Below, one piece after another: positions 7,554-42,235 of a stretch of DNA of 49,263 bases. The notes beneath the pieces are model-generated. The model searched no databases. It saw only the letters and a program-made list of their open reading frames with translations, and was not told the origin of the DNA. The position numbers and the translations under genes are program-made. Origin of the DNA: an uncultured beta proteobacterium (GTDB lineage: Bacteria; Pseudomonadota; Gammaproteobacteria; Burkholderiales; SG8-41); assembly GCA_903913965.1 (NCBI GenBank), contig CAIWNB010000035.1, forward strand, positions 1-49,263. The letters run 5' to 3'. Position 1 is the stretch's first letter; the number at the start of each line of letters is the position of its first letter.

Positions 7554-8533
7554 TCTGGTTTGATGGCAGCGTCCTGAATGACCTTGCTCCAGCGCTGCAT
7601 TTCGGCCTTGAGAAAGGTGGCGAATTCTTTCGGTGAACTACCGACCGGTTCGGCACCATCGAGATTGAAGCGTTGCACGACGTCTGGCAGCTTGACGGTG
7701 TTCGCCACTGCGGTGGCTAGTTTTGCGACGATGGCCGGCGGCGTGCCCGCGGGGACCATCATGCCCTGAAATGCCTCGGCGTGATAACCGGGCAGGCTCT
7801 CGGCGACAGTGGCCACCTCCGGCATGCTCGGATGTCGCTTGGCGCTGGTAACGGCGAGGGCGCGCAGCTTGCCGCTTTTGACATGCGGTGCCGCCGAGAT
7901 GGTGGTGGTGAAGAGCATGGTGATCCGTCCGCCGATCACATCGGTGACGGCAGCCGGGATACCCTTGTAGGGCACGTGGATCATGCGGATGCCGGCCATG
8001 CGCTGGAAGAGTTCGGCCGACAGATGCGGCGCCGAACCGCTGCCAGGGCTCGCGTAGGTCAATTCACCCGGTTTGACTTTGGCGAGTGCGATCAGGTCAC
8101 GCACCGTGCCGGCTGCGGCCGAGGGCGTAATGACGATGACGTTGGGCTGGGTGTTCAACTGCGTGACGGGCACGAAGTCGCGGATCGGATCGTAGGGCAG
8201 CTTCGGATACAACCCCGGATTGATGGCAAAGGTCGTGGTGATCATCAGGATCGTGTAGCCGTCGGCGGCTGCCTTGGCGGCGATTTCAGTGCCGACGATG
8301 GTGGCCGCTCCCGGACGCGAATCGACGACGATGTTCTGGCCCCATTGCTCGGTCAGTTTATGACCGAGGAGGCGGGCCGTGATGTCGAGCCCACCGCCCG
8401 GCGCGAAGGGTACGATCAAACGCAGCGGTCGCTCGGGATAACGCGCGGCATCTTGCGCGAATGCGGCAGGCGCTGCCGCGAGCAGCGCAGCAGCAACCGC
8501 AAACTGATGATGGTTCAAAGACCGGCGCAGCAT
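7547..8533 (-). CDS. Bug/TctC solute-binding protein
   Basis: The 328-residue receptor begins MLRRSLNHHQFAVAAALLAA, a signal peptide ending APAAFA before QDAARYPERP. The frame is open for another 150 codons upstream, but that part runs across the opine-dehydrogenase gene in another frame and is not used. The ligand motif PFAPGGGLDITARLLG and VDSRPGAATIVGTE are intact; MPEVATVAESLPGYHAE is slightly shortened. It starts 13 bp after the stop of the dehydrogenase gene, which strongly suggests one transcript, so the dehydrogenase may act on whatever this receptor helps import. Confidence 0.93.
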   Translation of the reverse strand: MLRRSLNHHQFAVAAALLAAAPAAFAQDAARYPERPLRLIVPFAPGGGLDITARLLGHKLTEQWGQNIVVDSRPGAATIVGTEIAAKAAADGYTILMITTTFAINPGLYPKLPYDPIRDFVPVTQLNTQPNVIVITPSAAAGTVRDLIALAKVKPGELTYASPGSGSAPHLSAELFQRMAGIRMIHVPYKGIPAAVTDVIGGRITMLFTTTISAAPHVKSGKLRALAVTSAKRHPSMPEVATVAESLPGYHAEAFQGMMVPAGTPPAIVAKLATAVANTVKLPDVVQRFNLDGAEPVGSSPKEFATFLKAEMQRWSKVIQDAAIKPEQ

Positions 8534-8546
8534 GAGGGCCGCCACG

Positions 8547-9659
8547 TCAGCCGCCGAGCGCGCGCTGCACGACTGCAGCTGGGGTGCCGGCGAGATCCAT
8601 GTCGGCCAGCGTGGGTCCGCATTGCCACGCATCGATGCCCAGCAGCACGCCGAGAATTTCAGCGAAGGCGCGATGCAGCGGCACTGCGATGTCTGCCTGT
8701 TCAGCGAGTTGCACGCAGGGCACGATGGCATAGGGCAGGTCCACCGCCTCCCATTCGCGCCAGATATCGGGCTGGAAAGGCGGAAACGATTTGTAGACCG
8801 GGTTCTGCATCGCTTCGTAAAACGTATTGCTCTTGAAGCCGTAATACTGTTCGATCGCCTTGGCCATCGGCGTATGCGTGACGCCGTAGGCCTCACAGAC
8901 GCGTTTGCGCTCGGCATCGAGCGCGTCGCCGAGCACGCCAGCGGACGGCACCACGCACTCTTGATAGAAGCCGGTTTTTTTGCCATCGAGTTTGGCGCGC
9001 TCCATCATGCCGACATTCGGCAGCACCATCGCCGGATGGACGATCAGGTTGAGGTTTTCGAGTCCGGTCTGCAGTACTGAGGTGGCAGCCGTGAGACCGG
9101 GAAAAACCGGCGTCAGCGCTGCCAGTGCCTCGGCGGCGCGTGCCGCCGGCACGGTGGCAATCTGGATGCCACGGCGCAGGCCCTTCGGGGTGACCACGGT
9201 GCCGTTGATGCGCGCGGCATGCGTTGGTGCTGGCGCTTCGGTGACGAGCACGTCTTCGCGGCCGGCCTGCCGCAGCAGCGGCGTGAGGCGTGCCGCCGGC
9301 CAGTAGCCGTGGCTTTGCACATGCACGACGGCACCGCGCGCGAATTCGGGAATCATCGCGCTAAAGCGTTTTTCGAGCTGGTGCATGTCGACTTCGATTA
9401 GCACGACTTGCGCATCCTGCAAGGCTTCTGCAGTGCTGTCGCAAATACGCTCGACGGCGGCGAAGCCGGTTTTTTTCGAAATCAGGTGCTGCGCATCACC
9501 TTCGACCGTAAAGCCGCCGGCTGCGCGGATCGCCGGCAGTTGCTCGCGTTGGTCTGCAAACACGGTGAAGCGCACCTGATGGCCGCACAGCGTGAGGTCG
9601 GCTGCGCAGACAGCGCCGATAGCGCGCGGGGTGTTGCCGATGACAGCGACTCTGGACAT
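8547..9659 (-). CDS. NAD/octopine (opine) dehydrogenase family protein
   Basis: The 370-residue protein has an N-terminal nucleotide-binding segment (MSRVAVIGNTPRAIGAVCAA, an unusual G-N-T-P-R-A version of G-x-G-x-x-G) and the octopine-dehydrogenase C-terminal domain, marked by ENLNLIVHPAMVLPNVG (about 216-232) with the His-Pro pair. Family enzymes reductively join an amino acid to a keto acid, or run the reverse oxidation. ATG 9659 is chosen over the upstream frame start because the Rossmann strand begins directly after it. It sits between an exported MBL-fold protein and a Bug gene on the same strand (25- and 13-bp gaps). Confidence 0.85.
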   Translation of the reverse strand: MSRVAVIGNTPRAIGAVCAADLTLCGHQVRFTVFADQREQLPAIRAAGGFTVEGDAQHLISKKTGFAAVERICDSTAEALQDAQVVLIEVDMHQLEKRFSAMIPEFARGAVVHVQSHGYWPAARLTPLLRQAGREDVLVTEAPAPTHAARINGTVVTPKGLRRGIQIATVPAARAAEALAALTPVFPGLTAATSVLQTGLENLNLIVHPAMVLPNVGMMERAKLDGKKTGFYQECVVPSAGVLGDALDAERKRVCEAYGVTHTPMAKAIEQYYGFKSNTFYEAMQNPVYKSFPPFQPDIWREWEAVDLPYAIVPCVQLAEQADIAVPLHRAFAEILGVLLGIDAWQCGPTLADMDLAGTPAAVVQRALGG

Positions 9660-40510: not shown

Positions 40511-42115
40511 TTATTCGATGGCTCGCGTTACCGAACGCGTGTTGCCGAAGCACGGTATGTAGACCGTATGCGCGCCGGCACCGCCGGCAACAATGATGGC
40601 GATATCTTGCGGTGTGTGGGCGATGGTGAGCAGGGTGTCTGCGTTAATCGGACCATAAGCGGCGGTGCGTGAGGCTTGTGCGCGGCCCATGTCCTCGGGC
40701 GTCATACGGCCAGCTTGCATCTTCGACCATTCCCAGAGCTTTTGCTGCACGTCGGCCTTGCTGTAACCGGCATCGTGCAGAATTTCGGCGTGCTCGGGCG
40801 AGAGCACGATCCACGGTTCGCCGCCATGCACGTATTCATTGGAAGGACCATGCATCATGGTGTCGGCGAACACGCGCAGAATGTCGTCGGCGTTTTTGCC
40901 GTAGCTGTGCATATTCATGGTGCCTTCCGCACCGACCACCGTGACCGTGCTTTGCGCCGGTTGATAGCCGCGCTCGACGTGTAGCGCTTGCCACGGGTTT
41001 TCGGCTTCGTTCTCGGCGCAGCAAAAGGAAATCTTGCCCGGCTGGCCCTGCGTGGCACGGTCCATGTCGCCGGGCAGTGCGCCACCGATGTTTTGCAGGA
41101 TCAAGCGCAGCGCGCGGCCGAGTGTGGCGTTGGCCCAGTTGCCCTGACCCAGACAATTCGCGCCGCTGTTCATATTGAGTTGCTGTGCGATCGGGCCGTT
41201 GACGATCAGCCACACCGCGACCGGGTCGGTGGTGGTTTGCACGCCCTGCAGATTGAACGGACGCTCGCAGACCGCGGCGGTGGCGGCGATCAGCACCGGC
41301 AGGTGGGCCGGTTCGCAGCCGGCCATCACCGCATTGATGGCGATGCGTTCGATGCTGGCGGCGCCGAAGCCCGGCGCGATGCGCGCGATAACCTCGTCGG
41401 CCTTGCGTGGGCTACCGCGCAGCATGGCGGCGACGCGTTCTCCGGTGGGCGGCACGACCGGCAGACCGTCGCCCCAGCGCTGTTGCATGATAAAGGCGTT
41501 GATTGCCTGCAGATCGTCGTCCACCTCGAACAGCGCGGTGCGTGTGGCGATGGCCGCGCGGGTGCCGGATGGTTCACTGTTGTCGAGGTTGGCAACCAGC
41601 TTCGCGATATCGTTGGCACATTGCGCCGCCAGTTCGCGCACCTGTTCGCGCGAGCGCGCGCTGAACGGATGAGGCACAACAGCGATCGGCAGATCGGGGT
41701 AACCGCAGGCGGCCGCCTGGGCGCGACCGAGTTTGATAAAGGCGCTGGAACAAACCGTCAGCGCGAGTGGCCCGAGTTTTGTCACTTCCGCATTGTCGTG
41801 GATACTCCACGACGTGCAGGCTCCTCAGTCGCCGGAGCCGGTGATGACGATGTCGCAGCGTTCGGCGATTTCCCGGATCATCGTTTCATCGGCGGGAATC
41901 GAAGCGCCGCGCTTGCGCCGGGTGATGATTGCTTTGACGCCGTGTTTGGTTGTGAATTCGGCGGCGAGGTCTTCGACCAGAAAATTAAAATTGGGCTTGG
42001 CGTTATCGATGAAGCCGATGGTTTTGCCTTTGAGGCCATCGAGCGCACGGCGGGCGAGTTGCGGCAGGTCGCCGGCGGGTGCGCTCGGATCATAAATGCG
42101 GGTGGTGACGGGCAT
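40511..42115 (-). CDS. UGSC-family selenoprotein with in-frame UGA (Sec97), two-domain fusion
   Basis: Reading TGA 41825-41827 as selenocysteine joins two open frames in the same phase into a 534-residue protein. ATG 42115 follows CCGGAGAACCGC. Residues 1-165 form the UGSC-type domain: MPVTTRIYDPSAPAGDLPQ, LKGKTIGFIDNAKPN, ERCDIVITGSGD then U-G-A-C-T-S-W-S-I-H-D, giving a U-x-x-C redox pair (U97, C100). After a linker, a C-terminal domain (about 195-534) contains QQRWGDGLPVVPPTGERVAA, WLIVNGPIAQQLNMNSGANC, GQPGKISFCCAENEAENPW and GGAGAHTVYIPCFG. No reaction is known to me. The UGA context and hairpin (separate entry) favour Sec over a nonsense mutation. Selenium-insertion genes are not in the window. 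Confidence 0.82.
41795..41827 (-). promoter_or_regulatory. Predicted bacterial SECIS hairpin with its UGA
   Basis: On the minus strand UGA (41827-41825) is followed by 11 nt, then stem GTCGTGG (41813-41807), loop AGTAT (41806-41802) and CCACGAC (41801-41795). The 7-bp stem is perfect. The apical loop starts 19 nt after the UGA, has 5 nt, and its second base is G. These fit published bacterial SECIS rules (small loop 16-37 nt from UGA with a G in its first two bases). A further 3-bp GCA/TGC pairing lies just below with an internal loop. Confidence 0.8.
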
Positions 42116-42235
42116 GCGGTTCTCCGGTGTGCGGGTGTTTGTACTGGCGAACAAGCCGATCAACTTAATCGAATTTTGGAATGCAGGCAACAGAAGCCCT
42201 GTTGATTGCTATTCGCGCCATACCCACCATCCTGC

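Follow-up and report, generated by a model that had tools for sequence, protein, structure and literature searches.

The closest described relatives of the gene analyzed here are the UGSC proteins (PF24696/NF041046; ABI76733.1 type), a family of predicted selenoproteins known from worm-symbiont and ocean metagenomes in which selenocysteine (Sec) occupies the U of a U-G-x-C motif. The fusion of a UGSC domain to a conserved domain of unknown function, termed UGSC/Unknown_1, is depicted in Figure S1A of the 2008 Global Ocean Sampling survey (PMC2398784), and both the family and a UGSC fusion are already known. A more distant point of comparison is provided by GrdB and PrdB of the glycine, sarcosine, betaine and D-proline reductases (PF07355, TIGR01917, TIGR04483), which exhibit a U-x-x-C pair followed by an E..G.P pattern similar to the one found in UGSC proteins. 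In GrdB and PrdB, Sec participates in the reductive cleavage of the complex-bound substrate (PMC13188914).

The window, i.e., the whole stretch of 49,263 nt that was analyzed, belongs to an uncultured betaproteobacterium whose genome assembly (4.95 Mb, 545 contigs) is referred to here as the source genome. On the minus strand, the phase running from 42115 to 40511 is interrupted solely by a TGA at 41827–41825, which reads TCA on the plus strand (Table 1). Gene calling with translation table 11 yields a 121-aa ORF (41825–42190) and a 424-aa ORF with a GTG start (40511–41785), which share one phase and are separated by 13 sense codons. The read-through product comprises 534 aa, ends at a TAA and carries U at position 97 and C at position 100, where the ATG at 42115 is preferred as the start based on a GGAG Shine-Dalgarno sequence and the start positions of relatives. 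Judging from sequence comparisons, the reading of this TGA as Sec is close to certain. An initial annotation of this DNA had already described two in-phase open frames split by the TGA, which a gene caller would report separately, and had interpreted the codon as Sec97 paired with Cys100 in a UGSC protein. Frame, phase, TGA position and the splitting by the gene caller are borne out, as is the residue numbering when counted from ATG 42115, and the strand, which had been left unstated, can now be given as minus. The assignment to the UGSC family also holds for the read-through translation, which the PF24696 profile matches across the TGA, with the amendment that it applies to the N-terminal third of the protein while the remaining ~345 aa constitute a separate conserved partner domain.

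Table 1. Positions and strands of the features at the predicted UGSC selenoprotein locus, numbered within the window.
Feature	Position	Strand	Remarks
UGSC-partner fusion gene, predicted selenoprotein, 534 aa, Sec97	40511..42115	-	ATG 42115, TAA 40513-40511
In-frame TGA read as predicted Sec97, motif U-G-A-C	41825..41827	-	TGA/TGC/TGT exchange in homologues
TGC codon, Cys100, second residue of the U-x-x-C pair	41816..41818	-	Conserved Cys in 17/19 paralogues
UGSC domain PF24696	41594..42094	-	Pfam match; predicted flavodoxin/CheY-like fold
C-terminal partner domain, ~345 aa, W-x-DGLP-x-x-PPT ... MAGC-x-PEY	40511..41542	-	Without Pfam/NCBIfam match
Shine-Dalgarno region GGAG, 5' of ATG 42115	42116..42129	-	
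SECIS-like hairpin, 8 bp, 3-nt loop	41795..41813	-	Pairing in relatives, synonymous-codon controls
Divergent neighbour, TctC/Bug-type solute receptor PF03401	42525..43550	+	

In the profile search, PF24696 aligned to residues 8–174 of the 534 with 147.3 bits (E = 6.4e-43), covering positions 3–170 of the 172 in the model and exceeding the gathering score of 25 bits. The NCBIfam model NF041046 matched over positions 2–145 of 147 with 115.1 bits (E = 2.6e-33). As this lies under its curated cut-off of 125 bits, the protein is filed under the Pfam family only and not as an NF041046 equivalog. Like the described members, it combines the UGSC domain with a predicted Sec at the U of U-G-x-C; it differs from them in its U-G-A-C motif, which replaces U-G-S-C, in the fusion to the partner domain and in being one of 19 paralogues. 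Taken alone, the gene adds one more member to a known, uncharacterised family with a known architecture, and the interest is in the extent of this family and its possible chemistry, beyond the single gene.

The C-terminal ~345 aa returned no Pfam or NCBIfam match up to an E-value of 10. Nevertheless, this partner domain accompanies all 19 UGSC genes of the source genome, fused in 12 and encoded by a same-strand neighbour in 7, and is found beside 31 of 34 UGSC copies in a Chloroflexi MAG. Both figures were collected with UGSC as the query and are free of the bias that affects the corresponding count in named genomes, where the matches were collected with the partner domain as the query; there, 76 of 80 UGSC copies have a same-strand partner no more than 800 bp away (30 of them in the same frame). 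Because every UGSC paralogue of the source genome has its partner, either fused or adjacent, it is highly likely that the two domains would act together. The arrangement is most probably the same as that of the UGSC/Unknown_1 fusion, and the partner domain is presumed to be Unknown_1. Searches of PDB sequences with UGSC, full-length and partner profiles retrieved nothing credible. Among structural comparisons of the partner model (pLDDT 89.5; Foldseek, VIA-align), class I fumarases were the best whole-length matches and were rejected as too weak (E = 2e-3, Z ~5 at 5–6 Å). The partner domain is without a confident structural relative, and its role is therefore a guess.

Among the structural matches listed, those of the predicted UGSC domain (mean pLDDT 85.5) are flavodoxin/CheY-like alpha/beta folds, and the model places Sec at the N-terminal end of the helix after strand 89–94. 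A flavodoxin/CheY-like alpha/beta sandwich is predicted, in place of the thioredoxin fold proposed in 2008. At the level of sequence profiles, UGSC proteins repeatedly match the GrdB, GrdF, GrdH and PrdB models (best 2e-5). The GrdB model TIGR01917 matches 15 of 28 UGSC domains (best 2e-5) and reaches ~12 bits in one member displayed, with a match that spans the Sec region; for the PrdB model TIGR04483, the best value is 9.5e-4. These matches are weak but recurrent, with Sec aligned, and the UGSC members stay far below the curated GrdB/PrdB cut-offs (602 bits for TIGR01917 and 65 bits for TIGR01918). When 369 genomes of the class were screened for GrdB-type proteins, only PrdB-like proteins under the cut-off emerged, and these were used for a profile-profile comparison. 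Here, hhalign aligned UGSC to the gammaproteobacterial PrdB-like proteins at E = 6.9e-5 (probability 63%), with Sec opposite Sec or Cys, as opposed to 0.085 or worse for the controls TctC, MmgE/PrpD, SDR and the partner domain. In contrast to the GrdB/PrdB systems, no GrdE/PrdA pyruvoyl partner was recognised for UGSC, the partner domain is a different one and the organisms are mostly uncultured. By these sequence measures UGSC is not a member of the GrdB/PrdB family and at most a remote relative.

The PrdB-like gammaproteobacterial group itself exhibits either U-P-[AV]-C (L113, L114, L117, L119) or C-P-[IV]-C (L115, L116, L118, L120) and, remaining below the GrdB-family model cut-off throughout, represents a separate family with a Sec/Cys pair. 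In Candidatus Entotheonella (L163), an ORF on the minus strand (8219–8911), located ~3 kb from a partner-domain gene, resembles PrdB-like proteins in the stretch just past the Sec and may be another truncated selenoprotein.

Due to the GrdB/PrdB matches and the role of Sec in these reductases, an enzyme that employs a selenol nucleophile together with the partner domain is favoured. UGSC would then be remotely related to the B subunits that carry Sec, and its own Sec would act on the substrate as a selenol nucleophile, to be restored afterwards by a thiol reductant, with Cys100 serving as the resolving thiol, the partner domain binding or preparing the substrate, and reductive cleavage or another carbon-heteroatom reaction as the outcome; the chances of this mechanism appear evenly balanced. 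Slightly less assured is the further proposal that the many divergent paralogues would be specialised for different small organic acids as substrates, which in betaproteobacteria would often be imported via neighbouring TctC systems. Taken as a whole, from Sec insertion to the diversified paralogues, this explanation is probable, and the best proposal for its mechanism is a two-part reductase or lyase which would use Sec as a selenol nucleophile on small organic acids.

The strongest competing explanation, which concerns the function and leaves the Sec reading intact, regards UGSC as a thiol-disulfide oxidoreductase in a redox relay, whose U-x-x-C would reduce disulfides or peroxides of protein partners in the manner of thioredoxin-like selenoproteins. 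In fact, U-x-x-C is a classic redox pair, and the 2008 survey places the family with selenoproteins of the thioredoxin fold (PMC2398784). However, the predicted UGSC domain resembles flavodoxin/CheY-like folds, two paralogues in the source genome have Ser in place of the second Cys (UGSS and UGTS), and a family of 19 to at least 146 divergent copies that keeps its conserved partner domain looks more like a set of substrate-specific enzymes, so that a redox relay seems rather unlikely.

Regarding the favoured selenol-nucleophile enzyme and its proposed substrates, MmgE/PrpD and amidohydrolase genes recur near UGSC genes, and this neighbourhood suggests organic-acid breakdown. Around the UGSC genes of the source genome, TctC receptor genes occur at 27 per 100 kb, compared to 5 per 100 kb at its other loci, figures that stem from small samples in a TctC-rich genome. 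None were detected in the Chloroflexi stretches, and the transporter link is therefore lineage-specific. Across the window as a whole (1–49263), there are about 19 matches to TctC/Bug-type receptors, corresponding to 39 per 100 kb and greatly exceeding the 5 per 100 kb of the remaining loci sampled.

Sec is usually regarded as costly and sparingly used. In the accessible literature, the published maxima of selenoprotein genes per genome are 39 in Syntrophobacter fumaroxidans, 57 in the Olavius algarvensis Delta 1 endosymbiont and 63 in a Methylomirabilota MAG (PMC5029168, PMC9312934, PMC13188914). These totals span all selenoprotein families, whereas UGSC alone contributes 19 genes in the source genome, 51–54 in a genome of the same genus (G003) and at least 146 UGA-containing copies in the groundwater Chloroflexi MAG JACPQD01 (G415). 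PF24696 identifies 19 UGSC loci in the source genome, and each has exactly one in-frame TGA within its UGSC domain, always at the U of the motif, which reads U-G-x-C in 17 and U-G-x-S in two; the median identity among the 19 domains is 25%. All 25 genomes examined from the same family hold UGSC matches (4 to 58 each), while genomes outside the family mostly have zero, with exceptions of 19, 6 and 1. The initial annotation had considered Sec-containing proteins rare in betaproteobacteria outside formate dehydrogenase, which is wrong for a lineage with 19 copies here and several in every family genome sampled. Across the class, the family was found in six of 369 genomes, with at most nine candidates scored per genome, and is therefore sparse.

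Among the individual genomes, G003 (98% complete, 2% contamination) has 58 UGSC matches, of which 51 contain a single TGA without another stop, three a TGA plus another stop and four no TGA, one gene being split over two rows of this count. Another genome, G018, has 30 matches, all with TGA, and the betaproteobacterial MAG RIFCSPLOWO2_12_FULL_62_13 contains 40 UGSC copies. For the Chloroflexi MAG G415, at least 150 matches were obtained, at least 146 of them with TGA, counting the best 150 of 208 candidates; its contigs of 359 kb and 350 kb bear 18 and 20 TGA copies, respectively. Four of the 150 matches in this MAG are without an in-frame TGA and three have two (C20, C58, C62, C101 and others). 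A few copies in G003 show extra stops or a broken frame (G003:C7:46801-47299, G003:C307:2580, G003:C45:3329), from which it appears that UGSC copies may be gained and lost. Several UGSC MAGs are titled “Bordetella parapertussis” (L124, L128, L129, L148, L151, L179, L193) and one “Methanobacteriaceae archaeon” (L189), which look like cases of mislabelling or misbinning.

The expansion could also be a binning artefact in which mixed strains inflate the number of copies, with the window gene still being a selenoprotein. The source genome consists of 545 contigs with an estimated contamination of 5.5%, G415 is a MAG, and a review from 2026 cautions on co-assembly. Yet the low median identity of the source-genome paralogues means that they are not strain duplicates, the 18 and 20 UGA-containing copies on single G415 contigs leave bin mixing alone as no explanation, and G003 still has 51–54 at 2% contamination; an artefact is thus improbable. 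With a genuine expansion, UGSC and its partner domain could form a superfamily of enzymes that is large, virtually undescribed and a distant relation of glycine/proline reductase, and that in certain uncultured bacteria would have diversified into dozens, perhaps up to two hundred, selenoenzymes per genome with differing substrates, a proposal that is tentative and falls somewhat short of an even chance. If true, the largest cited selenoproteome (63) would be more than doubled and Sec would be mass-deployed as a catalytic tool for the breakdown of diverse organic acids. With about 50 to more than 140 genes in some bacteria, the family is among the largest uses of Sec seen so far, and such numbers of genes from one selenoprotein family imply that Sec confers a selective advantage in an entire class of reactions. 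Each of these genes would be split into two by standard gene callers. A first testable idea of UGSC function comes from the constant partner domain together with the GrdB/PrdB relationship. No description of the scale of the expansion or of the GrdB link was found in the accessible literature, and it is not certain that the expansion is new.

The homologues, for which an end at the TGA had been named as a possible objection, run on past it with strong conservation and exchange TGA for TGC or TGT. In named genomes from several phyla, 80 UGSC copies lie beside a partner domain, and their codon at the Sec site is TGA in 74, TGC in four and TGT in two. In all six TGA-type genomes tested, the best match in a tRNA-Sec search was a true tRNA-Sec according to ARAGORN, while in all five Cys-type genomes tested, including Natrialba and Sphingomonas, it was only a tRNA-Ser or tRNA-Leu; in this first pass, which scored a subset of candidates, tRNA-Sec is likely absent from the Cys-type genomes. 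In G415, whose Sec machinery is putative, ARAGORN and tblastn searches covering about a third of the MAG detected no tRNA-Sec and no confident selA, selB or selD, the best tRNA-Sec match being a tRNA-Ser.

Downstream of the window UGA, a hairpin of 8 bp with a 3-nt loop (GUCGUGGA-GUA-UCCACGAC; 41813–41795, minus strand) begins after 11 nt, and its bases also encode S-W-S-I-H-D. When 168 distinct related Sec genes are compared, 89% of the cells for the eight pairs are paired, as opposed to 18–54% in the eight other registers, and pair 21:27 occurs as G-C in 116 of these genes and as C-G in 44, revealing compensatory changes. In the P-A-V subfamily, which has another peptide, the stem is shifted by one register and is 100% paired there. 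Compared to synonymous recodings of the same peptide, the hairpin of the gene analyzed here exceeds the controls (z = -3.03, p = 0.007), and 146 Sec genes yield a mean z of -2.30 with 71% at p ≤ 0.05, as opposed to one of six Cys genes passing. The signal is weaker in the Chloroflexi set (mean z -1.77, 43% passing), and 8 of the 19 source-genome hairpins, mainly from divergent subfamilies, fail singly against the synonymous controls. A search of Rfam at the locus gave no SECIS match. Based on pairing and recoding controls, the element can be classed as a SECIS-like hairpin, to which SelB putatively binds.

The genes selA, selB, selC and selD, which the initial annotation had proposed to look for, are all present in the source genome. 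A single 36-kb contig bears selA (C524:15978), selB (C524:18061) and the tRNA-Sec (C524:21164), the latter with the anticodon TCA and confirmed by ARAGORN; since two UGSC genes reside on this contig as well, machinery and family come from the same organism. Because the UGA lies within a conserved domain, a conserved hairpin follows at SECIS distance and the Sec machinery of the genome is complete, SelB with Sec-tRNA would almost certainly insert Sec at UGA codon 97. A genuine stop separating two genes, or the halves of a decaying pseudogene, agrees with the two ORFs of a standard gene caller and is still extremely improbable given that conservation spans the TGA, that the TGA is shared by all 19 paralogues and nearly all relatives, and that Cys codons occupy the site in genomes without a detected tRNA-Sec, in addition to the conserved hairpin and the full machinery. 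Equally negligible is a reassignment of TGA to another amino acid across the genome (as in codes 4 or 25), which would account for in-frame TGA codons in many genes but not for their occurrence once per UGSC domain and always at the motif, for the tRNA with a TCA anticodon being tRNA-Sec, or for the Cys codons that substitute in relatives; moreover, 11 of the 19 UGSC paralogues terminate with TGA, and there is therefore no genome-wide reassignment. The remaining component, selD, is located on a different contig from selA, selB and tRNA-Sec (C145:1483), and this gene (C145:1483-2409; L037/L040) is a selenoprotein gene itself with a single in-frame TGA.
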